A stretch of DNA of 64,000 bases from Jannaschia rubra (GTDB lineage Bacteria > Pseudomonadota > Alphaproteobacteria > Rhodobacterales > Rhodobacteraceae), in the NCBI RefSeq assembly GCF_001403735.1, contig NZ_CXPG01000021.1, forward strand, positions 186,001-250,000. The letters are read 5' to 3'. This document shows, one piece after another, positions 21,906 to 56,600 of this stretch. The stretch's first letter is position 1; every line of letters begins with the position of its first letter. The notes under the pieces are model-generated. The model searched no databases and was not told where the DNA came from. It saw only the letters and a program-made list of their open reading frames with translations. The translations under genes were made by a program, and so were the position numbers.

Positions 21906-23165
21906 TCAGCTTCGGCCCTTCCACGGGACCAGCCAGTTTTCCGCCTTGCGCATCAGGATGTCGATGCCGAAGCCGATCAGCCCGATCAGGATGATCCCCA
22001 TCAGCACGATATGCGTCAGCTGGGACTCGGACGCGGCGATGATCATCATTCCCGCCCCCTTCTGCGCGGCGACAAGCTCCGCCGCGACGACGGTGCCCCA
22101 GCAGACGCCCATCGCCACCCGCGCGCCAGTGAAGATCTCGGGCAGGGAGTTGGGAATGATGACGTGGCGCAGGATCTGCGCCTTGCTCGCGCCCAGCGAA
22201 TAGGCGGCGTGGACCTTGGTGATGTTCACGCCCGTGACTCCGGCCCGCGCGGCGATCGCCATGATCCAGAGCGCGGCGAGGAACAGCAGGACGAACTTGC
22301 CGGACTCCCCGATGCCGAACCAGATGAGGACCAGCGGGATCAGGGCGAGCGGCGGGACCGGGCGCATGAACTCCACGATGGGGTCGAACCAGCCGCGGAA
22401 CCAGCCCGAGAGACCCATGGCATAGCCGAGCGGAATACCCACGACCGCGCCGAGGGAGAAGCCCACCAGCACCCGGATCAGCGACCAGCCCAGATGTTCG
22501 ATCAGGGTGAAGTCGCGGAACCCGTTCTGCGCAGTGTCGATCAGCGCGGCGACGACGGCTTCCGGCGGGGGAAGCCAGATGTCCTCAATCCGATAGCCCT
22601 TGCGCGGTTCGATTTCGAGCGATCCGCGCGGGGTCATGGTAACGGTGGCATCGTCGATCCTGACGGTCTCGCCGGGGGCGATGGGCATGCCGTTGACCGC
22701 GACGACCGTGACCCCTTCTCCGTCGTTGCGGGTGACGTCGACGAGTTCGGTGCGGTAGGCGTCGATGCTGGTCGCGTCGTCCTGAGCGAAGCCTTCGCGT
22801 TCCGCGACAGCGGGCGGGTCCACATCGTCGCCGACCTCATGGACGATGAACCGAACCCGGGCGTCTTCCGTCCGGCCGGAGGCGTCCTGCGCGGTATAGG
22901 TAAAGCCGCCCTCGCCCAGAAAGGGGCCCGGCGCATGGAAAGGCACGTATTTCGACCCGGTGAACGCGCCCCACAGCAGGAAGATCACCACGACCGAGAT
23001 GATCGAGGCGGCACGGTTCGGACGCACGGCGCTTTCATCCCCGAAGGTGACGGTCTTGAGCGAGGTGAAATCCTTGCGCCGGGTACGGCGGGCCAAAGCT
23101 CCAACGAGGACCATCGCCACCCCGAAGATGGCGATGTAGAGGGCGAGGAGGACGAGTCCGGTCAT
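21906..23165 (-). CDS. tauC: Taurine-type ABC transporter permease with periplasmic Ig-like insert
   Basis: A 419-residue permease. The conserved TauC/SsuC core occupies residues 197-419: WLPPPEAVVAAL, then membrane segments and the cytoplasmic EAA loop that docks the ATPase (AAYSLGASKAQILRH, about 320-334). Ahead of it are two hydrophobic segments (3-22 and 53-69). Residues about 84-195 form a soluble, beta-rich stretch that resembles cadherin/VCBS Ig-like domains: FTYTAQDASGRTEDARVRF, then ELVDVTRNDGEG and VNGMPIAPGETV. By TauC topology this loop faces the periplasm. The family is usually about 250-280 residues, so the insert explains the extra length. It starts one base after the tauB stop. 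Confidence 0.85.
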   Translation of the reverse strand: MTGLVLLALYIAIFGVAMVLVGALARRTRRKDFTSLKTVTFGDESAVRPNRAASIISVVVIFLLWGAFTGSKYVPFHAPGPFLGEGGFTYTAQDASGRTEDARVRFIVHEVGDDVDPPAVAEREGFAQDDATSIDAYRTELVDVTRNDGEGVTVVAVNGMPIAPGETVRIDDATVTMTPRGSLEIEPRKGYRIEDIWLPPPEAVVAALIDTAQNGFRDFTLIEHLGWSLIRVLVGFSLGAVVGIPLGYAMGLSGWFRGWFDPIVEFMRPVPPLALIPLVLIWFGIGESGKFVLLFLAALWIMAIAARAGVTGVNITKVHAAYSLGASKAQILRHVIIPNSLPEIFTGARVAMGVCWGTVVAAELVAAQKGAGMMIIAASESQLTHIVLMGIILIGLIGFGIDILMRKAENWLVPWKGRS

Positions 23166-23166
23166 G

Positions 23167-23970
23167 TCACGCCTTCTCCGTCCGGCCCATGATTTCTTCC
23201 TCCATCTCCCAGATCATCGACAGGATCTCGTCTCGGGTGCGCCCGAACTCCGGGTCTTTCTTCACTGCGCGCAGGTCCTGGCTCACCCCGGCCTTCGCGA
23301 AAGGCAGACGGTATTCGCGATGGATGCGGCCGGGGCGCGGCGCCATGACCAGCAGACGCTCGCCCAGAAGTAGCGCCTCCTCCACCGAGCGGGTGATGAG
23401 GATGACGGTCTTGCCCGTCTCCTTCCACAGCTTCAGCACAAGGCCCTGCATCTTTTCCCGCGTCAGCGCGTCGAGCGCGCCCAGCGGCTCATCCATCAGG
23501 ATGATGTCGGGGTCGTTGGCCAGGCATCGCGCCAACGCCACGCGCTGCTGCATTCCGCCCGAAAGCTCGTAGATGGCCTTGTCCTTGAAGTTTCGCAGGC
23601 CGGTGATCTCCAGCAGATGATCGGCCTTCTCGGCGCGCTCGGCCTTGGGCGTGCCTTTCATCCTCGGGCCGAACTCCACGTTCTCGCGCACAGACATCCA
23701 TTCGAACAGGGCGCCCTGCTGGAACATCATGGCCCGGTCGGCGGACGGGCCGGTGACGGTCTTGCCGTGCAGGACGACCCGCCCGCCAGTGGGCGCGAGG
23801 AAGCCCGCGACGATGTTGAGAAGCGTGGTCTTCCCGCAGCCCGAAGGCCCCAGGACGGACAGAAGCCCTCCGTCGTCCACGGCAAGGGAGACGTCTTGCA
23901 GCGCCTGAACATAGCTGCCGTTGGGCAGATCGAAACGCATCGAGACGTTCTCGATGGACAGTCCGTTCAT
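23167..23970 (-). CDS. tauB: Taurine-type ABC transporter ATP-binding protein
   Basis: A nitrate/sulfonate/taurine-type ATPase of 267 residues from ATG 23970. This start is chosen because GGGA lies upstream and MNGLSIENVSMRF resembles the family; an ATG at 23985 would add five residues. Walker A (GPSGCGKTT), Q-loop (MMFQQGAL), ABC signature (LSGGMQQR), Walker B (IILMDEPLGALD) and D-loop are intact. The H-loop reads VILITRSVEEA: the switch histidine (normally ITH) is Arg, codon CGC at 23389-23391, residue 194. That histidine contacts the ATP gamma-phosphate in most ABC ATPases, so the substitution could weaken hydrolysis. It lies between tauA and tauC. Confidence 0.9.
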   Translation of the reverse strand: MNGLSIENVSMRFDLPNGSYVQALQDVSLAVDDGGLLSVLGPSGCGKTTLLNIVAGFLAPTGGRVVLHGKTVTGPSADRAMMFQQGALFEWMSVRENVEFGPRMKGTPKAERAEKADHLLEITGLRNFKDKAIYELSGGMQQRVALARCLANDPDIILMDEPLGALDALTREKMQGLVLKLWKETGKTVILITRSVEEALLLGERLLVMAPRPGRIHREYRLPFAKAGVSQDLRAVKKDPEFGRTRDEILSMIWEMEEEIMGRTEKA

Positions 23971-24005
23971 CCGAGGTTTCCCCATGATTTGCTGTTCGGT
24001 GCGGA

Positions 24006-24047: not shown

Positions 24048-24860
24048 TCAGTCGGCGCTGGCCGGGCCGGATTCGGTGGCCATGATCGGCAGCATCTCTG
24101 CCTGCGCCTCCGGGCCGGAATTCCAGCGCGCGGTGGCGTCGGTCGGCACCGACAGGAACTCCGCCAGAAGATCGGGCCGCTCCGCGACGAAGGATGCAGG
24201 CGCGGAGGTGCCGTCGAACACGAGGACGCCAAGGTCGTCCGTCTCGTCGCCGATGAGCAGGACGTTGCCGTGCTCCTTCATCCGGCCGAGCGATCCGCCG
24301 TAGCCGCGGACCATGTCGAGCGCACCCCGTACGAAGGCCGACGCACCATCGGGCGGGGTCATGCCGACAACTTCCATGACGGAAACCTCCACGCCGAAAT
24401 GCGCCATCTGCGCAAAAAAGCCGTAATGCGCGGCGGTGACGATTGGCACGCTGACCTTGTTGCCGTCGAGGTCCTTGGCAGTCTCCTCGTCGATCTCCAA
24501 CTTCGAAGCCACGACGCAGTTGTCGTTGTCGGAATAGCTGACCGCGACGTCGAGCTTCTTGATGTCCTGCCCGGCGCTGGTCGCCACGCCGAAGGGCGGC
24601 ACATCCTGGCTGACCGAGATCTGCACGTCGCCCGAGGCCATCCCGGCCGACATGGCGGTGCCGGTGTCGAAGGCGACCCGGTTGACGTCGACGCCCAGCT
24701 CATCCTCGGAGGGGCCGGCGTTCTTGGCCACGGGGAAGGGCAGCGGCCAATCCTTGAAATAGGCCACGGTGATTTCCCTGGACTTGGCCAGCGCACCCTG
24801 CGCTCCGGTCAACAGCGCCACCGCCGCCGCCGCACCCATGAGCTTGGATGTCAGGGACAT
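24048..24860 (-). CDS. tauA: Taurine ABC transporter substrate-binding protein, C-terminally short
   Basis: A 270-residue periplasmic protein with a Sec signal peptide (1-25, ending GALAKS). Diagnostic blocks are TVAYFKDWPLPFPVAK, FDTGTAMSAGMASGDVQISVSQ, VATSAGQDIKKLDVAVSYSD, and DMVRGYGGSLGRMKEHGN, which match Rhodobacterales taurine-binding proteins. Those proteins are, from memory, about 325-335 residues; this one stops after MLPIMATESGPASAD, so about 55-60 C-terminal residues are absent. No continuation is found in the other frames of the 62-base gap to tauB, so a deletion rather than a simple frameshift is likely. Ribosome binding site: GGGAGAGAG. It may be non-functional or a viable short form. 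Confidence 0.8.
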   Translation of the reverse strand: MSLTSKLMGAAAAVALLTGAQGALAKSREITVAYFKDWPLPFPVAKNAGPSEDELGVDVNRVAFDTGTAMSAGMASGDVQISVSQDVPPFGVATSAGQDIKKLDVAVSYSDNDNCVVASKLEIDEETAKDLDGNKVSVPIVTAAHYGFFAQMAHFGVEVSVMEVVGMTPPDGASAFVRGALDMVRGYGGSLGRMKEHGNVLLIGDETDDLGVLVFDGTSAPASFVAERPDLLAEFLSVPTDATARWNSGPEAQAEMLPIMATESGPASAD

Positions 24861-25003: not shown

Positions 25004-25036
25004 CTGGACCTAGCGCCCCATGGCCACTGGCCCTAT
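25004..25036 (+). promoter_or_regulatory. TauR-type direct repeats and promoter of tpa
   Basis: CTGGACCTAG (25004-25013) and CTGGCCCTAT (25027-25036) are direct repeats with a 23-bp pitch, close to CTGGACTTAA, which I recall as the TauR repeat upstream of tpa in Rhodobacter capsulatus. A CATAAT -10 hexamer at 25065-25070 has no good -35, as expected for an activated promoter with the activator bound just upstream. The 260-base region also separates tpa from the divergent tauA, so the same sites may serve both directions. Confidence 0.65.
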
Positions 25037-25120
25037 CGAATGGCGCCGATCCATGCGCTTGTTCCATAATCGCGCGGGCCGCGCCGCCCCCCGCGCCCGT
25101 TCCGCCGAGGAGTAGATTCC

Positions 25121-26509
25121 ATGGACACCCTGACCCCCAATGACATGTCCGCCATCGTCGAGGCCGACCGCGCCCACGTCTGGCACCATCTTCTGCCCCA
25201 CAAGCCGCTGGAGACGAACGACCCGCGAATCATCGTCGAGGGCAAGGGGATGCGCGTCTGGGACCAGCGCGGGAAGGAGCATCTGGACGCCGTTTCGGGC
25301 GGCGTCTGGACGGTGAACGTGGGCTATGGCCGGACCGAGATCGCCGATGCCGTGCGCGACCAGCTAGTCAAGATGAACTATTTCGCCCAGTCCGCCGGGT
25401 CGATCCCCGGCGCCCGCTTTGCCGAACGGTTGACCGAAAAGATGCCGGGGCTGACGCGGCTCTACTATGCCAACTCGGGGTCGGAGGCGAACGAGAAGGC
25501 GTTCAAGATGGTCCGGCAGATCAGCCACCGCCATCACGGCGGCCGCAAGTCCAAGATCCTCTACCGCGACCGCGACTATCACGGAACGACCATCGCCTGC
25601 CTCTCGGCGGGCGGCCAGCAGGAGCGGAACGCGCAATATGGCCCCTATACGCCGGGCTTCGTCGAGGTGCCGCACTGCCTTGAGTACCGCAAGGCCGACC
25701 AGGGCTGGGGCGACGTCGAGGATTACGGCCGCCGCGCCGCCGACGCCATCGAGGAGGTCATCCTGCGCGAGGGCCCCGACACCGTAGGCGCGCTGTGCCT
25801 GGAGCCGATCACCGCGGGCGGCGGCGTCATCGTGCCCCCCGAAGGATACTGGGCCCGCGTGCAGGAGATCTGCGAGACATACGACATCCTGCTGCACATC
25901 GACGAGGTCGTCTGCGGCGTGGGCCGCACCGGCACCTGGTTCGGGTATCAGCATTACGGCGTGAAGCCCGATTTCGTCACCATGGCCAAGGGGGTGGCCT
26001 CGGGCTACGCCGCCATCTCCTGCTGCGCCACGTCGGAGCGGGTGTTCGAGATGTTCAAGGACGCGCCGGACGATCCGATGCACTACTTCCGCGACATCTC
26101 GACCTTCGGCGGCTGCACCGCCGGGCCCGCCGCCGCGCTGGCCAACATGGACATCATCGAGCGTGAGGATCTGCTGGCGAACTGCACCGCCATGGGCGAC
26201 TACATGCTTGACGGGCTGCATGCGCTGGCCGACCGGCACCGCGTCATCGGACAAGCACGCGGTAAGGGGCTGTTCCTCGGCGCGGAACTGGTCGCAGACC
26301 GCGACACCCGGGAGCCTGCGGCGGAAAAGAAGGTGCAGGCCGTGGTGGCAGATTGCATGGAGCAGGGCGTCATCATCGGCGCGACCAACCGCTCGGTGCC
26401 GGGCCACAACAACACCCTGTGCTTCAGCCCCGCCCTGATCGCCAAAAAGGACGACATCGACGCGATCCTGTCGGCGGTCGACGGCGCCCTGGGCCGCGTC
26501 TTCACCTAG
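25121..26509 (+). CDS. tpa: Taurine--pyruvate aminotransferase
   Basis: A 462-residue class III PLP aminotransferase transferring the amino group of taurine to pyruvate, giving sulfoacetaldehyde and alanine. Family features: YYANSGSEANEKAFKM (about 115-130), LYRDRDYHGTT, CLEPITAGGGVIVPP, LHIDEVVCGVGRTG with the PLP-contacting Asp, and the PLP Schiff-base Lys290 in TMAKGVASGY. DISTFGGCTAGPAAALANM supplies the substrate-side residues. Closely related omega-amino acid:pyruvate transaminases exist. The assignment to taurine rests on the neighbours tauABC, tauR and xsc and on the overall Tpa-like sequence. It is divergent from tauA, preceded by TauR-type repeats. Confidence 0.92.
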   Translation: MDTLTPNDMSAIVEADRAHVWHHLLPHKPLETNDPRIIVEGKGMRVWDQRGKEHLDAVSGGVWTVNVGYGRTEIADAVRDQLVKMNYFAQSAGSIPGARFAERLTEKMPGLTRLYYANSGSEANEKAFKMVRQISHRHHGGRKSKILYRDRDYHGTTIACLSAGGQQERNAQYGPYTPGFVEVPHCLEYRKADQGWGDVEDYGRRAADAIEEVILREGPDTVGALCLEPITAGGGVIVPPEGYWARVQEICETYDILLHIDEVVCGVGRTGTWFGYQHYGVKPDFVTMAKGVASGYAAISCCATSERVFEMFKDAPDDPMHYFRDISTFGGCTAGPAAALANMDIIEREDLLANCTAMGDYMLDGLHALADRHRVIGQARGKGLFLGAELVADRDTREPAAEKKVQAVVADCMEQGVIIGATNRSVPGHNNTLCFSPALIAKKDDIDAILSAVDGALGRVFT

Positions 26510-26547
26510 GGTCTTGCCCGCACGGCGCGCGCGTCTATCTGTCCCGG

Positions 26548-26772
26548 ATGGATCCGCGCCCCGCCATCTTCTGGCTGTCGGCCATCGCCTGCGGCATCAC
26601 CTGCGCCACGCTTCTGACGGCGGCGCTCGTCTGGCTCGACGTGGGCGGGCTGGGGCATCTGGTCGAGACGGTGTCGGGCGGGACCATCGCGCTCTGGGTG
26701 CTGTGGTTGGCGCTCGTGTCGCTGTTCGTCCCGGCCTGCGCCGCGATGGCGCTGTGGCAGGGGCGGGAGTGA
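26548..26772 (+). CDS. Small two-helix membrane protein, function unknown
   Basis: A 74-residue ORF starting 38 bases after tpa. It has two hydrophobic segments (about residues 8-29 and 46-68: IFWLSAIACGITCATLLTAA and ALWVLWLALVSLFVPACAAM) with a short loop between, and nearly nothing else. I do not recognise a family. Codon use matches its neighbours, and the third positions are GC-rich. Its position between tpa and tauR suggests co-transcription with tpa, but no role in taurine metabolism can be shown. It could be a non-coding stretch that happens to be open, although the two clean helices argue for a gene. Confidence 0.5.
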   Translation: MDPRPAIFWLSAIACGITCATLLTAALVWLDVGGLGHLVETVSGGTIALWVLWLALVSLFVPACAAMALWQGRE

Positions 26773-26779
26773 GGGCTTC

Positions 26780-26811
26780 CTGAGTCCAGCCGGGTTGGCG
26801 TATAAGTCCAA
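26780..26811 (-). promoter_or_regulatory. TauR-type repeats overlapping the tauR promoter
   Basis: On the minus strand, TTGGACTTAT (26811-26802) and CTGGACTCAG (26789-26780) repeat with a 22-bp pitch, matching the pairs before tpa and xsc. The first copy covers TATAAG (26801-26806), a near-consensus -10 for tauR, and ends three bases before the tauR ATG. Binding there would block transcription of tauR, so autorepression is the natural reading. Confidence 0.55.
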
Positions 26812-26814
26812 TCC

Positions 26815-28287
26815 ATGCCTATCGCCGTCGAACAGTTCATCCTCGACCCCGCGTACCGCGGCACCCTTCAACGCCAGTTGCAGGAGATCGTGACCGCCGG
26901 CATCCTGGCGGGCCGCTTCCGCGCGGGGGAGCGGATGCCCTCGTCCCGGGGTCTGGCCCGGCACCTCGGCATCAGTCGGATCACCGTGACGCTGGCCTAC
27001 ACCGACCTCGTGTCGAACGATTACCTGTCGTCGCGCGGCCGCTCCGGATTCTTCGTCAGCGAAAGCGCCCCCCGTCCGCTCAGTTTCACGCCCCCTGCCC
27101 CGGCGGAATCGCGTGTGGACTGGTCGCGCGCCATCGGCCAGCGGTTTCCGCCCGCCGAGATCATGCTGCGGCCCGAGGATTGGCGCAGCTATCGCTATCC
27201 GTTCATCTACGGGCAGACCGATCCGCGCCTGTTCGACCATCAGAACTGGCGCAAATGCGCGTTGCAGGCCTTGGGCGCGCGCGATTTCGCGGCGCTGACC
27301 GAAGACAGCTATGGCCGCGACGACCCCTTGCTGGTCGATCAGATCATCCGCCACATCCTGCCTCGACGCGGCATCGTGGCGGAGCCTTGGGAAGTTCTGG
27401 TAACGCTGGGCGCGCAGAACGCGCTCTGGATGCTGGCGCAGGTCCTGCTGACGCAACGGCGGACGGCGGCGATGGAATACCCCTGCTACCCCGCCCTGCG
27501 CGAGATCCTGACCCAGTCGCGCTGCATCGCGACCGAGGTGCCGGTCGATGTCCATGGCCTGCCCCCCGCCGACGTCCCCGCGGCGACCGACGTGGTCTTC
27601 GTCACCCCCTCGCACCAGTGTCCGACATCGGCCACCATGCCCGTCGCGCGGCGGCGGGAGTTGCTGGCGCGGGCCGAAACGCATGACTTCTTGATCGTCG
27701 AGGACGACTACGAGTTCGAACTGGCCTTCACGTCCTCACCCACACCCGCGCTGAAATCGCTCGATCGCGGCGGCCGCGTCGCCTATCTGGGCAGCTTCGC
27801 CAAGTCGCTGTTTCCGGGGCTGCGGCTGGGCTATGTCGTGGCGCCCGAGCCGCTGATCCGTGAGCTTCGCGCCCTGCGGTCGCTGATCGTGCGCCATGTC
27901 CCCGGCCACATCCAGCGCGCCACGGCCTACTTCCTGGCGCAGGGGCACTACGACGCGCAGGTGCACCGTATGGCCCGCGCCTACCGCGAACGCCGCGCGG
28001 TGACCGAAGTAGCGATCCAGACCCACGGCCTGACCGTCGCGGGGGCGAGCGGCTTCGGCGGCTCGTCCTTCTGGATGCGCGCGCCGCCGGGGGTCGAGGC
28101 GGCCGAACTGGCCCGGCGCCTGCGCGCGCGGCAGGTGCTGATCGAACCGGCGGGCGTGTTCTTCGGAGCGGGGCGCGACCCCGGCACGCACTACCGTCTG
28201 GCCTATTCGTCGATCCCGGTGGACGACATCCCCGAAGGCATCCGCCGCATCGCGCAGGAAGGCGTGGCCATGGCCTTCGGCGCCTGA
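26815..28287 (+). CDS. tauR: TauR, MocR/GntR-type transcriptional regulator of taurine genes
   Basis: A 490-residue regulator of the MocR subfamily: an N-terminal GntR winged helix (about residues 17-85, with FRAGERMPSSRGLARHLGISRITVTLAY) joined to a class I aminotransferase-like domain (about 110-485). The PLP-binding lysine is in AYLGSFAKSLFPGLRLGY (K330), and the preceding IVEDDYEFEL carries the conserved Asp and Tyr. In R. capsulatus TauR is an activator of taurine genes. The ligand is probably a PLP adduct of taurine or a related amine. No ribosome binding site precedes ATG 26815, and a TATAAG -10 lies 9 bases upstream, so the message may be leaderless. Confidence 0.9.
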   Translation: MPIAVEQFILDPAYRGTLQRQLQEIVTAGILAGRFRAGERMPSSRGLARHLGISRITVTLAYTDLVSNDYLSSRGRSGFFVSESAPRPLSFTPPAPAESRVDWSRAIGQRFPPAEIMLRPEDWRSYRYPFIYGQTDPRLFDHQNWRKCALQALGARDFAALTEDSYGRDDPLLVDQIIRHILPRRGIVAEPWEVLVTLGAQNALWMLAQVLLTQRRTAAMEYPCYPALREILTQSRCIATEVPVDVHGLPPADVPAATDVVFVTPSHQCPTSATMPVARRRELLARAETHDFLIVEDDYEFELAFTSSPTPALKSLDRGGRVAYLGSFAKSLFPGLRLGYVVAPEPLIRELRALRSLIVRHVPGHIQRATAYFLAQGHYDAQVHRMARAYRERRAVTEVAIQTHGLTVAGASGFGGSSFWMRAPPGVEAAELARRLRARQVLIEPAGVFFGAGRDPGTHYRLAYSSIPVDDIPEGIRRIAQEGVAMAFGA

Positions 28288-28288
28288 T

Positions 28289-28337
28289 CTGGCCTTAGGG
28301 CGGGTCATGTGCTGGACCTAACGCCGTCTGGACCGAC
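28289..28337 (+). promoter_or_regulatory. TauR-type direct repeats upstream of xsc
   Basis: CTGGCCTTAG (28289-28298) and CTGGACCTAA (28312-28321) have the same 23-bp pitch as the pair before tpa. A third partial copy, CTGGACCGAC, lies at 28328-28337. The first copy begins two bases after the tauR stop. No convincing -10 hexamer is seen in the remaining 71 bases before xsc. The site implies that xsc-pta-soeABC is controlled separately from tpa by TauR. Confidence 0.65.
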
Positions 28338-28408
28338 CCCCTAGTGTCGCGCCAGACCATCGACCGGGGCGGACTGCCCCATGTCCGACAGATCGGGAGG
28401 AGCCCCCA

Positions 28409-30187
28409 ATGAAGATGACGACCGAGGAAGCCTTCGTCAAAACCCTTCAGGCGCATGGAATCCGCCATGCCTTCGGCATCATCGGGTCGGCCATGATGCC
28501 GATTTCAGACATTTTTCCCAGTGCCGGCATCACCTTCTGGGACTGCGCGCACGAAGGGTCGGCGGGAATGATGGCAGACGGATACACGCGCGCCACCGGC
28601 GAGATGTCGATGATGATCGCCCAGAACGGACCGGGCATCACCAATTTCGTCACCGCCGTGAAGACTGCCTACTGGAACCACACGCCGCTTCTGCTGGTCA
28701 CGCCGCAGGCTGCCAACAAGACCATCGGCCAGGGCGGATTCCAGGAAGTCGAGCAGATGAAGCTGTTCGAGGACATGGTCGCCTATCAGGAGGAGGTCCG
28801 CGACCCGACCCGCGTGGCCGAGGTTCTGACCCGCGTGATCGCCAAGGCCAAGCGCCTGTCGGGCCCCGCGCAGATCAACATTCCCCGCGACTTCTGGACC
28901 CAGGTCATCGACATCGAGATCCCTGACCCGGTCGAGTTCGAGGTCTCGCCCGGCGGCGAGAACTCCATCGCCCGCGCGGCGGAAATCCTGTCGAAGGCCA
29001 AGAACCCCGTCATCCTGAACGGCGCCGGAGTCGTGCTGTCGGACGGCGGAATCGCCGCGTCGATGCAACTGGCCGAGCGTCTGGATGCGCCGGTCTGCGT
29101 CGGATACCAGCACAACGACGCCTTTCCCGGCGGCCACCCCCTGTTCGCCGGCCCGTTGGGCTACAACGGCAGCAAGGCGGGCATGGAGCTGATCCGGGAC
29201 GCGGACGTGGTGCTGTGCCTCGGCACGAGGCTCAACCCCTTCTCGACCCTGCCCGGATACGGCATGGACTACTGGCCGCAGGACGCGAAGATCGTGCAGG
29301 TGGACATCAATCCCGACCGCATCGGCCTGACGAAGAAGGTGACCGTCGGCATCGTGGGCGACGCGGCCAAGGTGGCGACGGGCATCCTCAACCGGCTGTC
29401 CGACGACGCGGGCGACGCCGGGCGCGAGGACCGCAAGGCCCGCATCGCCCAGACGAAATCGGCCTGGAAGCAGGAGCTTTCGTCGCTGGACCATGAGGAG
29501 GACGATCCCGGCACCACCTGGAACGAGCGTGCCCGCGCCGCGCGCCCCGACTGGATGTCGCCGCGTCAGGCATGGCGCGCGATCCAGTCCGCCCTGCCCC
29601 GCGAGGCGATCATCAGCAGCGACATCGGCAACAACTGTGCCATCGGCAACGCCTATCCCGACTTCGACGAGGGGCGGAAATACCTGGCACCCGGCCTGTT
29701 CGGCCCTTGCGGTTACGGCCTGCCCGCCATCGTGGGCGCCAAGATAGGTCGGCCGGACGTGCCGGTCGTGGGCTTTGCGGGCGACGGGGCCTTCGGCATC
29801 GCGGTCAACGAACTTACCGCCATCGGCCGCGACGAGTGGCCCGCGATCACGCAGATCGTCTTCCGCAACTACCAGTGGGGCGCCGAAAAGCGGAACTCGA
29901 CCCTGTGGTTCGACGACAATTTCGTGGGCACCGAACTGGACATGAAGGTCAGCTATGCGGGCATCGCGCAGGCCTGCGGGTTGAAGGGCGTGCAGGTCCG
30001 CACGATGGATGAGTTGACCGAGGCGCTGAACACGGCGATCAAGGAGCAGATGGAAAACGACATTACCACCCTGATCGAGGTCATCCTGAACCAGGAACTG
30101 GGCGACCCGTTCCGCCGGGACGCCATGAAGAAGCCCGTGCGCGTGGCCGGGGTCAACCGGAACGACATGAACGTCGCCGCGGAATGA
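28409..30187 (+). CDS. xsc: Sulfoacetaldehyde acetyltransferase
   Basis: A 592-residue thiamine-diphosphate enzyme that splits sulfoacetaldehyde with phosphate into acetyl phosphate and sulfite. The catalytic Glu is in WDCAHEGSAGMMADGYTRAT (about residues 46-65), the central domain contains NGAGVVLSDGG, and the ThDP/Mg site is VGFAGDGAFGIAVNELTAIG followed by IVFRNYQWGAEKRN. The RNYQWGAEKRNSTLW stretch and the N-terminal MKMTTEEAFVKTLQAHGI distinguish Xsc from acetolactate synthase. It is the first gene of xsc-pta-soeABC. The start follows GGGAGGAGCC. Confidence 0.95.
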   Translation: MKMTTEEAFVKTLQAHGIRHAFGIIGSAMMPISDIFPSAGITFWDCAHEGSAGMMADGYTRATGEMSMMIAQNGPGITNFVTAVKTAYWNHTPLLLVTPQAANKTIGQGGFQEVEQMKLFEDMVAYQEEVRDPTRVAEVLTRVIAKAKRLSGPAQINIPRDFWTQVIDIEIPDPVEFEVSPGGENSIARAAEILSKAKNPVILNGAGVVLSDGGIAASMQLAERLDAPVCVGYQHNDAFPGGHPLFAGPLGYNGSKAGMELIRDADVVLCLGTRLNPFSTLPGYGMDYWPQDAKIVQVDINPDRIGLTKKVTVGIVGDAAKVATGILNRLSDDAGDAGREDRKARIAQTKSAWKQELSSLDHEEDDPGTTWNERARAARPDWMSPRQAWRAIQSALPREAIISSDIGNNCAIGNAYPDFDEGRKYLAPGLFGPCGYGLPAIVGAKIGRPDVPVVGFAGDGAFGIAVNELTAIGRDEWPAITQIVFRNYQWGAEKRNSTLWFDDNFVGTELDMKVSYAGIAQACGLKGVQVRTMDELTEALNTAIKEQMENDITTLIEVILNQELGDPFRRDAMKKPVRVAGVNRNDMNVAAE

Positions 30188-30215: not shown

Positions 30216-31187
30216 ATGACCTCGCCGCTCGCCACCCTGCGCGACCGCGCCCGCGCCACCCCGCGCCACATCGTCCTGGCCGAGGGCACGGATCCGCGCG
30301 TGCGCGAAGCGGCGCGGCGCGCGGTGGCCGAAGGGCTGGCGCGCGTGACCATTCTTGCGCCCGAGGGGACCGAAGCACCGGAGGGCGTGACCCTGCGCGA
30401 CCCGGCGACTGCCGATACCGAGGCGCTGATCGACGTCTGGATGACCGCCCGCGCCCGCCGCCACCCCACCCGCGACGACGCGGTGGTCGCCGTGCGTGAT
30501 CCGCTGACCCATGCGGCGCTGATGGTGCGCGCGGGGCTGGCCTGCGGCACCATCGCGGGCGCCGTCGCCACGACTTCCGAAACGGTCCGCACGGCGTTGC
30601 AGGTGATCGGCACCGCGCCCGGCGCGCCGCTGGTCAGCAGCTTCTTCCTCATGGTGCTGCCCGACAGCCATCCGAAGCGCCCGGGCGCGCCGATGATCTT
30701 CGCGGATTGCGGACTGGTCATCGACCCCGACCCGGAGCAACTTGCCGCCATCGCACGGCAGTCGGCGGCCTCGGCCCGCGCGCTTCTGGGGGTGGAGCCG
30801 AAGGTGGCGATGCTGAGCTTCTCCACCAAGGGCAGCGCGCACCACATGGCGGTCAACAAGGTGGTCCAAGCCCTCGACCTTCTGTCCGACGCGCCCTTCG
30901 ACGTGGACGGAGAGCTTCAGTTCGACGCCGCCTTCGATGCCGGCGTGGGGGCGTCCAAGGCGCCGGGCAGCCCCGTGGCGGGGCAGGCCAACGTGCTGAT
31001 CTTTCCGGACCTCGACGCGGGCAACATCGGCTACAAGATCGCGCAGCGCATCGGGGGCGCGACGGCCATCGGCCCTGTCCTGCAAGGGCTGGCGAAACCC
31101 GCGAACGACCTGAGCCGGGGCTGCACGGCGGACGACATCATCGACATGATCGCCGTCACCTCGGCCCAGGTGGAGGCGCGCGAATGA
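30216..31187 (+). CDS. pta: Phosphate acetyltransferase
   Basis: A 323-residue enzyme converting the acetyl phosphate made by Xsc to acetyl-CoA. It is the short form, containing only the catalytic PTA_PTB domain. Family blocks are HIVLAEGTDPRVREAARRAV, LACGTIAGAVATTSETVRTALQ, MIFADCGLVIDPDPEQLA, KVAMLSFSTKGSAHH and NVLIFPDLDAGNIGYKIAQR. It lies 28 bases after xsc and overlaps soeA by ATGA (31184-31187), which fixes it inside the taurine operon rather than with an acetate kinase; no ackA is adjacent. Confidence 0.95.
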   Translation: MTSPLATLRDRARATPRHIVLAEGTDPRVREAARRAVAEGLARVTILAPEGTEAPEGVTLRDPATADTEALIDVWMTARARRHPTRDDAVVAVRDPLTHAALMVRAGLACGTIAGAVATTSETVRTALQVIGTAPGAPLVSSFFLMVLPDSHPKRPGAPMIFADCGLVIDPDPEQLAAIARQSAASARALLGVEPKVAMLSFSTKGSAHHMAVNKVVQALDLLSDAPFDVDGELQFDAAFDAGVGASKAPGSPVAGQANVLIFPDLDAGNIGYKIAQRIGGATAIGPVLQGLAKPANDLSRGCTADDIIDMIAVTSAQVEARE

Positions 31188-33994
31188 ACCAGCCGGTCCT
31201 GGACCTGTCGCCCCAAGTCTCGGACGAGATCCGCAAGACGACCTGCTACATGTGCGCCTGCCGCTGCGGCATCGACGTGCACATCAAGGACGGCAAGGTC
31301 GCCTATATCCAGGGCAACCGCGACCATCCGGTCAACCGCGGCGTCCTCTGCGCCAAGGGCAGCGCCGGGATCATGCAGCACAACGCGCCGTCCCGCCTGC
31401 GCGCGCCGATGAAGCGGACGGGTCCGCGCGGGTCGGGTCAGTTCGAGGAGATCGGCTGGGACGAAGCCTATGCCATCGCAGAAGGCTGGCTGCGCCCGAT
31501 CCGCGAGACGGCGCCGGAAAAGCTCGCCTTCTTCACCGGCCGCGACCAGTCGCAGAGCTTCACGTCCTGGTGGGCGCAGGCCTTCGGTACGCCCAACTAT
31601 GCCGCCCACGGTGGGTTCTGCTCGGTCAACATGGCGGCAGGCGGCATCTACACCATGGGCGGCGCCTTTTGGGAGTTCGGGCAGCCCGACTGGGACCGGA
31701 CCAGGCTGTTCATCCTGTTCGGCGTGGCCGAGGATCACGACAGCAACCCGATCAAGATGGGGCTGGGCAAGATCAAGAAGAACGGCGCCCGCGTGGTCGG
31801 CGTGAACCCGGTCAGGTCGGGCTACAACGCCATCGCCGACGACTGGTTCGGGATCACGCCGGGCACCGACGGCCTGCTGATCCTGTCGCTGGTGCATTGC
31901 CTGATGAAGGCCGGCAAGATCGATCTTGAATACCTGCGCGACTTCACCGACGCGCCGGTTCTGATCGACGCGGACCCGGCGTCGCCCAAGCACGGCCTCG
32001 CCCTGCTGGACGACGACGGGCACAAGCTGGTCTGGGACCGCACCGAGAAGCGCGCCCGCTGCTACGACGCGCCGGACGTGAACCCCGATCTGGCCGGCGT
32101 GTGGGTGGTCGACGGCATCCGCCACCGCACCGTGTTCCAGCACATGGCAGAAAAGTACCTGTCGCCCGAATACGCGCCCGAAGCCGTGGCCGCACGCACC
32201 GGCATCGCCGCCCCGCGAATTCGCGCGCTTGCCGCCGAGATCGCGCGCGTGGCCTTCGACGAGGCGATCGAGCTTCCGATCCCCTGGACCGATTTCCGCG
32301 GCCGACGACACGAGACGATGAAGGGCCGCCCCGTGGCGATGCACGCCATGCGCGGCATCAGCGCCCACGCCAACGGGTTCCAGACCTGCCGCGCGCTCCA
32401 CCTGCTCCAGATCATCATCGGCAGCGTGGAGACCCCCGGCGGCTTCCGGTTCAAGCCGCCCTACCCCAAGCCTGCCACCGCGCACCCCAAGCCCCACCGC
32501 CGCCACGCGCCGAACGCGCCGCTCGACGGTCCGCACCTGGGTTTTGTTCACGGGCCGGAGGATCTGGCGCTTCGCGACGACGGAACGCCCGCGCGCATCG
32601 ACAAGGCCTTCACCTGGGAAAACCCCATGTCGGCGCACGGGATGATGCACATGGTCATCTCGAACGCGCACGCGGGCGACCCCTACAGGATCGACACGCT
32701 GTTCATGTACATGGCGAACATGGCGTGGAATTCGTCGATGAATACCTCCGGCACCATGGCGATGCTGTCCGACACGGATGAGAACGGCGACTACGTCATC
32801 CCGCACATCATCTATTCCGACGCCTATTCGTCCGAAATGGTGGCTTATGCCGACCTCATCCTGCCCGATACGACCTATCTGGAACGCCATGACTGCATCA
32901 GCCTGCTGGACCGCCCCATCTGCGAGGCGGAGGCGGCTGCCGATGCGATCCGCTGGCCGGTGGTGGAGCCGGACCGCAACGTGCGCGGGTTCCAGTCGGC
33001 GCTGATCGACCTGGGCGCGCGGCTGGGCCTGCCGGGTTTCGTGAACGACGACGGCAGCCAGAAGTTCGCGGATTACGCCGACTACATGGTGCGCCACGAA
33101 CGCCGACCCGGCATCGGCCCGCTGATGGGTTGGCGCGGCAACGGTGAGGAGACGGGGCGCGGTGCGCCGAACCCGCAGCAACTTGACCGCTATATCGACA
33201 ACGGGGGCTTCTGCGTCGCGCACATCCCCGAGGCGGCGCAGTTCTACAAGCCGTGGAACATGGCGTATCAGGAATGGGCGGTCGAAATCGGTCTGTTCGA
33301 CAAGGCGTCCCCCTATCTGTTCACCCTCTGGTGCGAACCTCTGCGCCGGTTCCAGCTGGCGGCGGAGGGGCATGGGTCCATCCAGCCCCCCGACCATCTG
33401 CGCGACCGCATCCGCGCCACGATGGACCCGCTGCCCATCTGGTATCCACCCGGCGGCGCGGAGGATGGCGAATACACCGTCCATGCGCTGACACAGCGGC
33501 CGATGGCGATGTATCATTCCTGGGGCGGCCAGAACGCCTGGCTGCGGCAGATCCATGGGCACAACCCGATGTACCTGCCCACCGACCTGTGGGAGCGGCA
33601 CGGATTTGCGCAGGGCGACTGGGCGCGCATCGCCTCGCCGCACGGGAACATCACCGTTCCGGTGGCGCATATGCCCGCACTCAACGGCAACACGATCTGG
33701 ACCTGGAACGCCATCGGCAAGCGGCGCGGGGCCTGGGGCCTGCATGACAATGCGCCCGAGTCGAACGAGGGGTTCCTTCTCAACCATCTGATCCACGAGC
33801 TGATGCCCCCGCGCGGCGACGGAATGCGCTGGTCGAACTCCGATCCGATCACGGGTCAGGCGGCCTGGTTCGACCTGAAGGTGAAGGTCGAGAGGGTCGT
33901 GGCCCCCGCCGACCGCGTGACCCGCCCCGACACCGGCGCGCAGGCAAGCCCCGTGGGCAAGGGGCCGGACGAACTGGCATGGGTGGTGAAGTGA
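31184..33994 (+). CDS. soeA: Sulfite dehydrogenase SoeA, molybdopterin-guanine-dinucleotide subunit
   Basis: A 936-residue catalytic subunit of the DMSO-reductase superfamily. The N-terminal iron-sulfur site is C21-x2-C24-x3-C28 and C56 (CYMCACRCG ... GVLCAKG), and the molybdopterin domains follow, with the C-terminal dinucleotide-binding domain from about residue 760 (LTQRPMAMYHSWGGQNAWLR). There is no Tat signal, so the active site faces the cytoplasm, as known for SoeABC. Paralogues reduce DMSO, thiosulfate or polysulfide; the oxidative sulfite role is inferred from position directly after xsc and pta, where sulfite is released. It overlaps pta and is followed by soeB after 22 bases. Confidence 0.88.
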   Translation: MNQPVLDLSPQVSDEIRKTTCYMCACRCGIDVHIKDGKVAYIQGNRDHPVNRGVLCAKGSAGIMQHNAPSRLRAPMKRTGPRGSGQFEEIGWDEAYAIAEGWLRPIRETAPEKLAFFTGRDQSQSFTSWWAQAFGTPNYAAHGGFCSVNMAAGGIYTMGGAFWEFGQPDWDRTRLFILFGVAEDHDSNPIKMGLGKIKKNGARVVGVNPVRSGYNAIADDWFGITPGTDGLLILSLVHCLMKAGKIDLEYLRDFTDAPVLIDADPASPKHGLALLDDDGHKLVWDRTEKRARCYDAPDVNPDLAGVWVVDGIRHRTVFQHMAEKYLSPEYAPEAVAARTGIAAPRIRALAAEIARVAFDEAIELPIPWTDFRGRRHETMKGRPVAMHAMRGISAHANGFQTCRALHLLQIIIGSVETPGGFRFKPPYPKPATAHPKPHRRHAPNAPLDGPHLGFVHGPEDLALRDDGTPARIDKAFTWENPMSAHGMMHMVISNAHAGDPYRIDTLFMYMANMAWNSSMNTSGTMAMLSDTDENGDYVIPHIIYSDAYSSEMVAYADLILPDTTYLERHDCISLLDRPICEAEAAADAIRWPVVEPDRNVRGFQSALIDLGARLGLPGFVNDDGSQKFADYADYMVRHERRPGIGPLMGWRGNGEETGRGAPNPQQLDRYIDNGGFCVAHIPEAAQFYKPWNMAYQEWAVEIGLFDKASPYLFTLWCEPLRRFQLAAEGHGSIQPPDHLRDRIRATMDPLPIWYPPGGAEDGEYTVHALTQRPMAMYHSWGGQNAWLRQIHGHNPMYLPTDLWERHGFAQGDWARIASPHGNITVPVAHMPALNGNTIWTWNAIGKRRGAWGLHDNAPESNEGFLLNHLIHELMPPRGDGMRWSNSDPITGQAAWFDLKVKVERVVAPADRVTRPDTGAQASPVGKGPDELAWVVK

Positions 33995-34016
33995 CCGCCC
34001 CGGAAGGAAACGCCGC

Positions 34017-34766
34017 ATGACCGCCCTGCCGGAGGCCACCACGAAAAAGCTGGGCCTGGTCATCGACCTCGATACCTGCGTCGGCTGTCATGCCTGCGTC
34101 ATCGCCTGCAAGGGGTGGAACACGCAGAACTACGGCGTGCCGCTGTCGGATCAGGACCCCTACGGTCAGGCCAGCGGAACCTTCCTGAACCGCATCCACA
34201 GCTATCAGGTTCAGCCCGCGACGGGCGCGGCGCAGACGACGCATTTCCCGAAGTCCTGCCTGCATTGCGAGGATGCGCCCTGCGTCACGGTCTGCCCCAC
34301 CGGCGCCAGCTACAAGCGGGCCGAGGACGGGATCGTGCTGGTGAACGAGGATGCCTGCATGGGCTGCGGCCTCTGCGCCTGGGCCTGCCCCTACGGCGCG
34401 CGGGAGGTGGACGAGGCGGCGGGCGTGATGAAGAAATGCACGCTCTGCGTCGACCGCATCTATAACGAGACGCTGCCCGAGATCGACCGGCAACCCGCCT
34501 GCGTGCGGACCTGCCCCGCGGGCGCGCGCCACTTCGGCGACCTGGGCGACCCCGACAGCGACGTGTCGCGCCTGGTGGCGGACCGGGGCGGCCTGGACCT
34601 GATGCCGGAACAGGGCACGAAGCCCGTCAACCAGTATCTTCCGCCGCGCCCCCGCGACACGCTGGACGACGTGCCGGAGGACGTGCTGGCCCCCTTCCTC
34701 GCCCCCGTGGACGAGACGCCGCAGGGGTTCCTGGGCTGGCTCGACCGCGCGCTGGAAAAGCTCTGA
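34017..34766 (+). CDS. soeB: Sulfite dehydrogenase SoeB, four-cluster ferredoxin-like subunit
   Basis: A 249-residue electron-transfer subunit with four cysteine groups for [4Fe-4S] clusters: CVGCHACVIACKGW, CLHCEDAPCVTVCPTGAS, CMGCGLCAWACPYGA, and CTLCVDRI with CVRTCPAGARHFGD. This is the DmsB/NrfC pattern. It passes electrons between SoeA and the membrane anchor SoeC. Like SoeA it lacks a signal peptide. Its TGA shares a base with the soeC ATG (34766), and soeA lies 22 bases upstream, so the three are translated together. Confidence 0.92.
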   Translation: MTALPEATTKKLGLVIDLDTCVGCHACVIACKGWNTQNYGVPLSDQDPYGQASGTFLNRIHSYQVQPATGAAQTTHFPKSCLHCEDAPCVTVCPTGASYKRAEDGIVLVNEDACMGCGLCAWACPYGAREVDEAAGVMKKCTLCVDRIYNETLPEIDRQPACVRTCPAGARHFGDLGDPDSDVSRLVADRGGLDLMPEQGTKPVNQYLPPRPRDTLDDVPEDVLAPFLAPVDETPQGFLGWLDRALEKL

Positions 34767-35653
34767 TGCAGCCCGCGCCCTCCGTCATCATCTTCTCGAC
34801 GCTGTCAGGCGCGGGCTTCGGCCTGCTGTTCTTCCTCGGGCTGGGCTTGCCCGTCGTCACCGGGGGCATCGCCTTCGGCTTCTACCTGATCGCCTATGTG
34901 CTGGCGGTCGGCGGGTTGCTCGCCTCGGTGTTCCATCTGAAGAACCCCAAGAACGCCTGGCTCAGCTACAGCCAATGGCGCACGTCATGGCTGTCGCGCG
35001 AGGGGTGGGCGGCGGTTCTGGCGTTGCTCGTCATGGGCGTCTTCGCTCTGTTTCAGGTGTTCTTCGGCGTCACCCTCGCGCCGCTCGGATGGCTCGGCGC
35101 GGCGCTGTCGCTGACGACCGTCTTCACCACGGCGATGATCTACACCCAACTGCGGACGGTGCCGCGCTGGAACCAGCCCGCGACGCCCGTCGTGTTCCTG
35201 ACCGCATCGCTGGCCGGGGGCGCGCTTCTGTCGAACAACCCGATGCTCGCCGTGATCCTGTTGATCCTGCTGGGCGCGGCGGTCCTGTTCCACTGGTGGA
35301 AGGGCGATCGCCGCTTCGCCGAGGCTGGATCGACCATCGGCACCGCCACGCAACTGCGCGGCCGCGTCAGCCTCTGGGAAAAGCCGCACACGGGCGAAAA
35401 CTACCTGACGCGTGAGATGGTGTTCCGCGTCGCGCGCAAGCACGCCGTCAAGCTGCGCGTGATCGCGCTGGTCCTGATGACGCCGGTGCCGGTCGCGCTG
35501 ATCCTGCTGTTCGGGGCGCATCACCTGCCGGTGGCGCTCGCCGTCCTGTCCTATGTGGCGGGCGTCTTCGCGCAGCGTTGGCTGTTCTTCGCGGAGGCCG
35601 AACACGTCGTCGGCCTCTACTACGGCGCCCACACCGGCCGGCAGGTCGCCTGA
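34766..35653 (+). CDS. soeC: Sulfite dehydrogenase SoeC, DmsC-type membrane anchor
   Basis: A 295-residue integral membrane protein with about eight hydrophobic segments, the DmsC/NrfD-like quinone-interacting anchor. PSVIIFSTLSGAGFGLLFFL opens the first helix, and FHLKNPKNAWLSYSQWRTSWLSREG in the first cytoplasmic loop is the conserved family block. A later WWKGDRRFAEAGSTIGTATQ loop and HTGENYLTREM are also typical of DmsC. It would hand electrons from sulfite to the quinone pool. The gene ends four bases before the stop of the convergent carboxypeptidase gene; no terminator hairpin is visible between them. Confidence 0.88.
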   Translation: MQPAPSVIIFSTLSGAGFGLLFFLGLGLPVVTGGIAFGFYLIAYVLAVGGLLASVFHLKNPKNAWLSYSQWRTSWLSREGWAAVLALLVMGVFALFQVFFGVTLAPLGWLGAALSLTTVFTTAMIYTQLRTVPRWNQPATPVVFLTASLAGGALLSNNPMLAVILLILLGAAVLFHWWKGDRRFAEAGSTIGTATQLRGRVSLWEKPHTGENYLTREMVFRVARKHAVKLRVIALVLMTPVPVALILLFGAHHLPVALAVLSYVAGVFAQRWLFFAEAEHVVGLYYGAHTGRQVA

Positions 35654-53662: not shown

Positions 53663-56600
53663 ATGGCGATGGAAAAGACCTTCAACCCGGCCGAGGCCGA
53701 GGCCCGGATCAGCGCCAGGTGGATCGAAGGCGGCCATTTCCGCGCAGGCGCCGGGGCGAAGCCGGGGGCCGAGACGTTCTCGATCCTCATCCCGCCGCCC
53801 AACGTCACCGGCAGCCTGCACATCGGGCACGCCTTCAACAACACGTTGCAGGACATCCTCGTCCGCTGGCACCGGATGCGGGGGTTCGACACGCTGTGGC
53901 AGCCCGGCACCGACCACGCCGGCATCGCCACGCAGATGGTGGTGGAGCGGGAACTGGCCGCCGAAGGCAAGACCCGCCGCGACTTCACGCGGCAGGACTT
54001 CACCGCCCGCGTCTGGGACCAGAAGGTGAAATCCGGCGGCCGAATCCGCGAACAGCTGACCCGACTGGGCGCCTCCTGCGACTGGGACCGGATGGCCTTC
54101 ACCATGTCGGGCGCGCCGGGCGCCCCCGCGGGCGAGGAGGGCAACTTCCACGACGCCGTCATCAAGGTCTTCGTCGAGATGTATCGGCAAGGCCTGATCT
54201 ACCGCGGCAAGCGCCTCGTGAACTGGGACCCGCATTTCGAGACGGCGATCTCGGACCTCGAGGTCGAGAACATCGAGACGGCGGGCCACATGTGGCACTT
54301 CAGGTATCCGCTGGCCGGGGGCGAGACTTATACCTACGTCGAGCGCGACGAGGACGGCGAGATCCTGTTCGAGGAGGAGCGCGACTACATCTCCATCGCC
54401 ACGACGCGCCCCGAGACGATGCTGGGCGACGGCGCGGTGGCGGTGCATCCGTCCGACAAGCGCTATGCGCCCATCGTCGGCAAGCTCTGCGAGATTCCGG
54501 TGGGGCCGAAGGCGCAGCGACGGCTGATCCCGATCATCACCGACGACTATCCGGACCCCGACTTCGGTTCCGGCGCGGTCAAGATCACCGGGGCGCATGA
54601 TTTCAACGACTATGCGGTCGCCAAGCGGAACGGTATCCCCTGCTATCGCCTGATGGATACGCGCGGCGTGATGCGCGACGACGGCCCCCCCTATGCCGAG
54701 GCGGCGGCCAAGGCGCAGGAGATCGTCGACGGCGCCGAGATGACCGAAGGCGAGATCGACGCGATCAACCTCGTGCCCGACGCCTACCGGGGGCTCGACC
54801 GGTTCGACGCGCGCCGTGCCGTGATCGCGGATATCACCGCCGAGGGACTGGCCGTCATGGTTCCCGCCACCGACCCGCGCCTGGGCGCGGGCGCGGGGTC
54901 GGCCACGGCGGATGTCACCGGCGCGCCGCCGCTCGACGCCTCCGAAGGGGGCGACATGCGGACGGAGGACGAGGCGCTGGTGCCGCTGGTCGAGGCGCGG
55001 CCGATCATGCAGCCCTATGGCGACCGTTCGAAGGTCGTGATCGAGCCGATGCTGACCGACCAGTGGTTCGTGGATACCGCCAAGATCGTGCAGCCCGCCA
55101 TCGACGCCGTGCGCAACGGGGACGTCACGATCCTGCCCGAGAGCGATCGCAAGGTGTATTTCCACTGGCTGGAGAATATCGAGCCGTGGTGCATCTCGCG
55201 CCAGCTCTGGTGGGGGCATCAGGTGCCGGTGTGGTACACGCTCGACCCCGACGGGGATGCCGACTGGCTGCCGATCTGCGCGCCGGACGCGGACGATGCC
55301 CTGCGACAGATCCGCCTGATCCACGGCGAGGACGCGGACGTGCGCTTCGTGCCCGACGAGGATGCCGCGCTCGACGTGATCCGCGACGACCTGTCGGGCC
55401 TGCGGACCCGCACCGGTGGCCGCATCCGCCAGCAGCAGGGCCCGCAGTCCATTCCCGCGTTCCGCGACCCGGACGTGCTGGACACCTGGTTCTCCTCCGG
55501 GCTCTGGCCTATCGGCACGCTGGGCTGGCCCGAACGGACCACGGCGCTGGAGCGGTATTTCCCGACCTCGACCCTCGTGACCGGGCAGGACATTCTGTTC
55601 TTCTGGGTCGCGCGGATGATGATGATGCAGCTGGCCGTCGTGGGCCAGGTGCCGTTTCGCACCGTCTATCTGCACGGGCTGGTCCGCGATGCGAAGGGCA
55701 AGAAGATGTCCAAGTCGCTGGGCAACGTCGTCGACCCGCTTGAGGTGATCGACGAATACGGCGCCGATGCCCTGCGGTTCACCAACGCGGCGATGGCGTC
55801 GATGGGCGGGTCGCTGAAGCTCGACCCGCAGCGGATCGCGGGCTATCGCAACTTCGGCACTAAGCTCTGGAACGCCGTCCGTTTCGCGGAAATGAACGGC
55901 GTGACCTTCGCCGGGTCGACGCCCCCCGCTGCGGATTTGACCGTCAACAAGTGGATCATGGGCGAGGTCGCCCGCGTGCGGCAGGAGGTGGACGAGGCGC
56001 TCGCCGCCTATCGCTTCGACGATGCGGCGAACGCGCTCTATCGCTTCGTCTGGAACGTGGTCTGCGACTGGTATGTCGAACTGTCGAAGCCCGTCCTGCA
56101 GGACGAGGGCGTGGCCGGCAAGGACGAGACGCAGGCCGTCATGGGTTGGGTGCTGGAACAGTGCATGATCCTGCTGCACCCCTTCATGCCCTTCGTGACC
56201 GAGGAACTCTGGACCGTCACGGACCACGACGGGATGCTGGTGACGGGCGACTGGCCTGTGAAGATCACCCCGGACCTGATTGATCCGGCTGCGGAATCGG
56301 AGATGCGATGGGTCATCGGCTTCGTCGAGGCGGTCCGCTCCGCGCGCGCCCAAATGAACGTGCCGGCCGGCGCCGTCATCCCCGTGATCGCCGTCGACCG
56401 CGATGAGGCCGCCCGTCAGGCGGCCGACCGGAACATGGCGTCGATCCAACGGCTTGCACGGATTTCCGGCATTGCCGACGGCCAAGCCCCGCGCGGGTCG
56501 ATCGCGGTGACGGCGAAGGGCGCCCGATTTGCCCTGCCTCTGGACGGGGTGATCGACGTGGCCGCCGAAAAGGCGAGGCTGGAGAAGTCGCTGGCGAAAC

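Follow-up and report, generated by a model that had tools for sequence, protein, structure and literature searches.

The 64,000-nucleotide stretch of Jannaschia rubra DNA analysed here (contig NZ_CXPG01000021.1, positions 186,001 to 250,000; referred to below as the window) encodes a MocR-type regulator, TauR, together with genes for taurine dissimilation, and paired direct repeats precede three of these genes, tpa, tauR and xsc. These sites are very probably TauR operators, predicted to be activating at xsc and tpa and, as a reversed pair, autorepressing at tauR. In its core, this is a finding of TauR operators of an already known type. What seems to be novel, judging from the loci compared, is a conserved split between a reversed auto-operator with a pitch (the distance from box start to box start) of 22 base pairs (bp) and forward target operators with a pitch of 23 bp.

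Paired boxes at three promoters of the taurine locus

The window sequence contains paired boxes with the consensus CTGGMCYTA at tpa, xsc and tauR (Table 1). The tpa pair lies 85 bp upstream of the tpa ATG, with tpa divergent from tauA, and the reversed tauR pair lies 3 bp upstream of the tauR ATG. A first-pass annotation had picked out six boxes by eye, and all six were found at the pitch claimed. It had also held that spacing and sequence are preserved at the three sites; pairs are indeed present at all three, but the sites are not equivalent, since the tauR pair is reversed, has a pitch of 22 bp and lies over the predicted core promoter, whereas those at tpa and xsc run forward at a pitch of 23 bp. 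A third, partial box follows the xsc pair and reads CTGGACC; CTTGAC was found at the same place in 13 of 16 congeneric loci by reading the alignment by eye.

The view that the repeats are operators of a dimeric MocR regulator, put forward in the same annotation, is supported by the domains of TauR, by its gene neighbours and by published repeats. TauR combines an N-terminal GntR winged helix-turn-helix domain (PF00392, 46.1 bits; cut-off 27) with a class I aminotransferase domain (PF00155, 56.3 bits; cut-off 19.7), and its top solved relatives are GabR (4n0b, 4mgr) and a 'PLP-dependent aminotransferase family protein' (7pq9), PLP being pyridoxal 5'-phosphate. The stretch GSFAKSLFPGLRLGY in TauR is taken by us to resemble the PLP-lysine motif. 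TauR adjoins tauABC, tpa, xsc, pta and soeABC-like genes and is thus encoded with the genes of taurine dissimilation. Moreover, the repeat that the annotation had given for Rhodobacter capsulatus TauR proved correct, as this protein is described as binding CTGGACYTAA direct repeats (Suvorova and Rodionov 2016; PMC5320631, cited throughout for the part of its text drawn on here).

Specificity of the paired repeat

A strict pair was defined as two CTGGMCYTA boxes at a pitch of 21 to 25 bp, and the same pattern read backwards served as the control. The first-pass annotation had suggested setting the pairs of the genome against their random frequency. The J. rubra genome (3,660,824 bases) contains two strict pairs, at tpa and xsc only, and no match to the control. 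When up to 3 mismatches were allowed, the search of this genome became uninformative, with 35 control matches (22+13) against 18 real ones (13+5) at pitch 23, and 48 (28+20) against 15 (6+9) at pitch 22; the follow-up in this genome was accordingly limited to pairs with at most 2 mismatches, plus a 3-mismatch pair beside a TauR paralog. The window tauR pair is thus not conspicuous genome-wide by itself, and its support comes from its position and its conservation in relatives.

Across the family, the strict pair is present in 122 of 394 genomes, as against 15 hits of the control pattern spread over 11 genomes (hand count). For a census, 150 strict sites were listed and the two of the window removed, leaving 148, and taurine proteins of the window's types were sought within 400 bp; all census counts apply among the matches listed. 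In related genomes, 134 of the 148 sites have a taurine gene within this distance, so that unrelated promoters do not carry such pairs in equal numbers. Forward sites at xsc show 23 bp in 46 cases and 22 bp in 5, and those at tpa 23 bp in 40 and 22 bp in 6; reversed sites at tauR show 22 bp in 23 cases, 23 bp in 3 and 24 bp in 1. The other taurine sites belong to tauA (3), soeA (3) and tauE (1), with three lacking an assigned target. The strict pairs before soeA occur in three other genomes (L226, L277 and L336), two of them forward and one reversed, which hints that the soe genes belong to the TauR regulon.

Among the 14 non-taurine sites, nine have a pitch of 21 bp, seven of these within a near-identical recurring stretch, and a pitch of 21 is absent from all taurine sites. 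Inspection by eye of the other five, of pitch 22 to 24, revealed no shared target. At position 1501 of locus L317, away from taurine genes, a strict 22-bp pair precedes small EmrE-like and isochorismatase-like genes (names given by eye).

Conservation of pitch and strand

The window was compared with 80 loci carrying the closest TauR relatives (60-84% identity, the nearest being from Jannaschia at 84%), in which tauR, xsc and tpa were placed by tblastn. Among the 80 loci, xsc follows tauR within less than 1 kb in 65, and tpa lies ahead of tauR in 57. Upstream regions, including those of the window, were searched for a pair with at most 3 mismatches at any pitch from 12 to 40 on either strand. 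Such a pair was present upstream of tauR in 68/81 regions, of xsc in 67/70 and of tpa in 49/57; the corresponding counts were 10/405, 13/350 and 6/285 in shuffled regions, and 9/81, 6/70 and 4/57 in regions read backwards. Elsewhere in these loci, 107 of 4864 segments of 250 bp contained a pair.

The pitch was then counted with the strand fixed, a pitch free between 18 and 28 and at most 4 mismatches. Reversed tauR pairs have a pitch of 22 bp in 69 of 81 regions; forward xsc pairs have 23 bp in 68 of 70, with one at 22 bp, and forward tpa pairs have 23 bp in 48 of 57. Where a locus has a pair at tauR as well as at xsc, the two show 22 and 23 bp, respectively, in 59 of 65 cases. The tauR pitch (22 or not), mapped on a quick TauR tree, switches no fewer than 5 times. 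In 16 TauR loci of the genus besides that of the window, partly from the same species as the 80, the xsc pitch is 23 bp in 16/16 and the tauR pitch 22 bp in 13/16, with one at 21 bp and two without a pair. Comparing the loci with one another gives 76-84% identity for the boxes (which had been chosen by their likeness to the consensus) and 29-39% for the spacers.

These counts also bear on whether the repeats could arise simply by chance or from codon use in a genome rich in GC. Single boxes are frequent in the window (76 matches with at most 2 mismatches against 33 expected), and look-alike pairs do exist, yet nine of the 14 non-taurine sites have the pitch of 21 bp that is seen at no taurine site. 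Both strict pairs of the genome fall at tpa and xsc while the control gives none, and pitch, strand and place are conserved around poorly conserved spacers. A chance origin is refuted by the genome, conservation and pitch counts.

A class-wide search for TauR at E <= 1e-120 gave matches in 16 of 385 genomes. Outside the Rhodobacteraceae, two genomes of family f107 keep the 23-bp pair (0 and 1 mismatch) before tpa; in these, tauR lies 30-45 bp after tpa and has no pair of its own at up to 2 mismatches. The separate tauR operator may, on the basis of these two genomes, be a trait of lineages in which tauR has its own promoter. Five xsc matches were found in other alphaproteobacterial families, and four were examined, the one at a contig end (L188) being left out; in family f37, a forward 23-bp pair with 2 mismatches lies 73 bp before xsc.

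Promoter anatomy and proposed mechanism

When the xsc regions were aligned on their boxes (n=67), TA was present at positions 53-54 in 82% and T at position 58 in 79%, forming a TAnnnT -10 element. C at position 64 (64%) and A at position 65 (66%) suggested the xsc transcription start. In the window, the start so predicted (Table 1) would have the near box span -42 to -34, which would be a class II activator position. A TTGAC between the near box and the -10 element of congeneric loci was considered as the -35 element and rejected, the spacing to the -10 element being 7 bp. At tpa, no clear -10 element was seen.

The distance of the near box to the tauR ATG was measured in the 77 regions that have a pair, and in 76 of them the pair lies 0-16 bp before the ATG. 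In a first class (43/81), with a pitch of 22 bp and the near box 11-16 bp from the start codon, a -35-like TTG follows the far box in 36/43 and TAnnnT follows the near box in 33/43 (0.7 expected from shuffling). Six nucleotides separate the -10 element from the ATG in 29/43, and the tauR transcription start was therefore placed at the ATG. In a second class (29 regions, including the window), the pair is 0-4 bp from the ATG, hence 11-12 bp or about one helical turn closer, and the promoter elements of the first class were not seen; five regions fall outside both classes. Shine-Dalgarno-like motifs precede tauR in 2/43 and 2/29 regions of the two classes, as compared with 60/70 for xsc and 22/23 for tpa, the tpa count being confined to the 23 of 57 regions in which the tblastn match starts at an ATG (for the remaining tpa regions, distances were obtained by extending the match back to residue 1). 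In the window, no Shine-Dalgarno motif was seen before the ATG at 26815, and the near TauR box overlaps a candidate -10 element; TATA occurs at that place in 9 of 16 genus loci, as read by eye.

Based on these positions, we propose that TauR would bind as a dimer to two direct half-sites that face the same side of the DNA and are separated by about two turns. At xsc and, probably, tpa, the pair would immediately precede the promoter, its near box falling in the -35 region, and taurine-loaded TauR would there activate the genes of taurine degradation. At tauR, the reversed pair, tighter by 1 bp, would extend over the core promoter as far as the start codon; since a dimer bound there should cover the core promoter, the pair is probably an autorepression operator, and the tauR message is probably leaderless. 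The position over the core promoter and the probably leaderless message also seem to be new. Among the papers that literature searches listed, none was recognised as dealing with a pitch particular to tauR or with leaderless tauR.

Alternative explanations

Several points weigh against reading these sites as TauR operators with a separate auto-operator. The window tauR pair has 2 mismatches to the consensus, and no good -35 element was seen there by eye. The 81 tauR regions include 6 with a pitch of 23 bp, 2 with 21 bp and 4 that lack a pair, and 9 of the 57 tpa regions depart from 23 bp (6 at 22 bp, and one each at 18, 20 and 24 bp). The loci are related rather than independent, and the choice of their boxes was guided by likeness to the consensus. 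Three of the four xsc regions examined outside the family have no pair at up to 2 mismatches. Finally, the best NCBIfam model for TauR is the PLP_TF_PdxR equivalog (350.6 bits; cut-off 320), and no TauR model is among the best 25 of its 58 NCBIfam matches.

Because the PdxR score exceeds its cut-off, automatic naming would give PdxR, and the sites might then belong to another regulator, either one of the PdxR type controlling vitamin B6 or the TauR-like paralog encoded on contig C12. Cross-binding by that paralog is plausible, as it shares 20 of 22 residues with TauR in the stretch MPSSRGLARHLG..TVTLAY (hand count on the alignment) and has a 22-bp pair of its own. However, the census sites lie overwhelmingly beside taurine genes (see above), the regulator gene stands between the window pairs, and 16 of the 17 TauR-bearing genomes of the genus yield just one match at E <= 1e-120, and so lack such a paralog at this threshold, yet all 16 keep the xsc pair. 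The PdxR label was set aside because of the gene context and the operator distribution, and we regard control by another regulator as highly improbable.

Another possibility is that the reversed tauR pair is no auto-operator and instead activates transcription leading away from tauR. The C12 locus has the same geometry in the form of a divergon, in which the pair points at a TRAP transporter gene and backs on the paralog. In the window, however, tpa and a small open reading frame end at this place and no gene start faces the pair, and the pair keeps close to the tauR ATG in all but one of the 77 regions measured. Activation away from tauR is thus unlikely, and autorepression is preferred.

As for the difference between 22 and 23 bp, it stands at little short of an even chance that it has no regulatory meaning and results from packing the boxes around the -35 and -10 elements of tauR, with which they interleave at fixed places in the first class (TTG and TAnnnT). 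On the other hand, most regions of the second class, with their pair nearer to the ATG and none of these elements seen, retain 22 bp; the classes switch at least 4 times on the TauR tree; and the pair found before a tauE-type gene is also reversed, yet has a pitch of 23 bp. A regulatory code is conceivable though rather doubtful, in which a reversed 22-bp pair would prefer ligand-free TauR and silence tauR, and a 23-bp pair would prefer taurine-loaded TauR. If this code were true, 23-bp pairs would activate degradation and sulfite export, and taurine would shift TauR away from its own promoter and on to its targets by altering how far apart its two DNA-binding domains lie.

Sites elsewhere in the genome

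On contig C20 (212078-213131), a TauE/SafE gene (PF01925) is preceded, at a distance of about 100 bp, by a reversed 23-bp pair that has 2 mismatches. A TauE/SafE gene is present in 20/20 genomes of the genus, and a reversed pitch-23 pair (up to 3 mismatches) in 11 of them; its distance to the start is 98-103 bp in 10 genomes and 88 bp in one, and a conserved TTTGACA-like stretch lies downstream of it. No other pitch-23 pair of like quality occurs in the 20 loci (about 3.9 kb each, both strands), and one of the 11 pairs (L207) ties with a pitch-15 pair. TauR is present in 11/11 genomes with this pair and in 6/9 without it, and the three genomes without TauR lack the pair; given only three negatives, the link is suggestive. 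TauR regulons are reported to include tauE (PMC5320631). The gene is a tauE-like candidate, and its site seems to be new.

Contig C12 (100000-118000) carries a second taurine-type locus with a TauR-like paralog (48% identical to TauR), a three-gene TRAP transporter, a second xsc (77%) and tauZ-, tauY- and tauX-like genes, and the same order is found in genome G055. In both loci, a 22-bp pair with 3 mismatches lies between the paralog and a transporter gene and points at the latter. One genome may thus hold two complete taurine routes.

On contig C25 at position 55702 (L137), a 22-bp pair with 2 mismatches lies between an arginase-like gene (named by eye) and an Amidohydro_3 gene, 120 bp before the latter. 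The Amidohydro_3 protein presumably belongs to COG1574. The pair had drawn attention since COG1574 proteins are named in TauR2 regulons (PMC5320631). Among 120 family genomes, only J. rubra itself matched this gene at E <= 1e-150, and no claim of regulon membership is made.

Comparison with known systems

In R. capsulatus, a single operator at tpa serves a tpa-tauR-xsc operon; the TauR regulon of this organism was reportedly described by Wiethaus in 2008. Unlike that layout, both tauR and xsc have their own operators here, the one at tauR being reversed and of 22-bp pitch. GabR of Bacillus subtilis works from one shared divergent operator, in contrast to the separate operators here, and it differs from this TauR in box sequence and ligand. 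Like TauR, GabR is a MocR regulator, a head-to-tail dimer binding direct repeats, with target activation and autorepression (PMC5320631).

According to the part of PMC5320631 drawn on here, the TauR regulon of R. capsulatus and the Rhodobacterales has the same CTGGACYTAA repeats and a MocR regulator, and its genes (tauABC, tpa, xsc, pta, tauE and bisC/dmsC/hybA) match those found here, bisC/dmsC/hybA being taken as the soeABC-like genes. The direct repeats of MocR regulators are separated by two or three helical turns, autorepression is frequent among these regulators, and distances vary slightly within regulogs; that part of the text gives no pitch for individual promoters. PdxR (Bacillus clausii and others) is a MocR regulator too, whose ligand state shifts the preferred repeat geometry; it controls vitamin B6 genes, whereas the strict pairs here are found at the taurine genes tpa and xsc only. 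TauR2 is described as a TauR paralog with similar boxes and a TRAP transporter in its regulon. The C12 paralog, a possible TauR2, resembles it in these respects but differs in lying with tauXY-, xsc- and tauZ-like genes.

Genes of the locus

The coordinates of the sites and genes are collected in Table 1, in which the names of tpa and of the soeABC-like genes are in part our assumption. The tauC gene (21906-23165) encodes about 190 N-terminal residues ahead of the part matching the TauC model (residues 193-418 of 419). Between tpa and tauR, a small open reading frame (26548-26772) encodes a hydrophobic product of 74 amino acids (aa), with no Pfam match and no tblastn match among those listed for the 80 related loci. 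In one congener (locus L346, genome G1134), the tauR frame has an internal TGA and is perhaps a pseudogene; this genome also has no pair at tauE.

Table 1. Predicted regulatory sites and genes of the taurine locus, with positions in the window
Feature	Position	Strand	Remarks
tauC and tauB, taurine-type ABC transporter	21906..23985	-	TauC and TauB best models, under cut-off
tauA	24048..24860	-	named from context; divergent from tpa
TauR-type operator, tpa	25004..25036	+	boxes CTGGACCTAG at 25004 and CTGGCCCTAT at 25027; pitch 23 bp
tpa, taurine:pyruvate aminotransferase	25121..26509	+	only generic aminotransferase NCBIfam models; named by context
Putative TauR auto-operator, tauR	26780..26811	-	boxes TTGGACTTAT (5' end 26811) and CTGGACTCAG (5' end 26789); pitch 22 bp
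Candidate tauR -10 element TATAAG	26801..26806	+	overlapped by near TauR box
tauR, MocR-type regulator, 490 aa	26815..28287	+	
TauR-type operator, xsc	28289..28321	+	boxes CTGGCCTTAG at 28289 and CTGGACCTAA at 28312; pitch 23 bp
Third partial box CTGGACCGAC	28328..28337	+	16 bp beyond second xsc box
Predicted xsc -10 element TAGTGT	28342..28347	+	predicted start near 28354
xsc, sulfoacetaldehyde acetyltransferase	28409..30187	+	TIGR03457, 921.6 bits; cut-off 676.4
pta, phosphotransacetylase	30216..31187	+	NF007233, 334.8 bits; cut-off 310
soeABC-like sulfite dehydrogenase genes (molybdopterin, Fe-S and membrane subunits)	31184..35653	+	gene order; no NCBIfam model above cut-off

Significance

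Taurine is a large marine pool of organic sulfur and nitrogen, and the Rhodobacteraceae are among its consumers. Through this analysis, a motif noticed by eye has become a tested, family-wide operator description, to which a separate predicted auto-operator with its own fixed pitch has been added. A TauE/SafE-type exporter gene elsewhere in the genome is pointed to as putatively controlled. Moreover, the 22- and 23-bp pairs would constitute a natural experiment on what decides whether a MocR regulator represses or activates.

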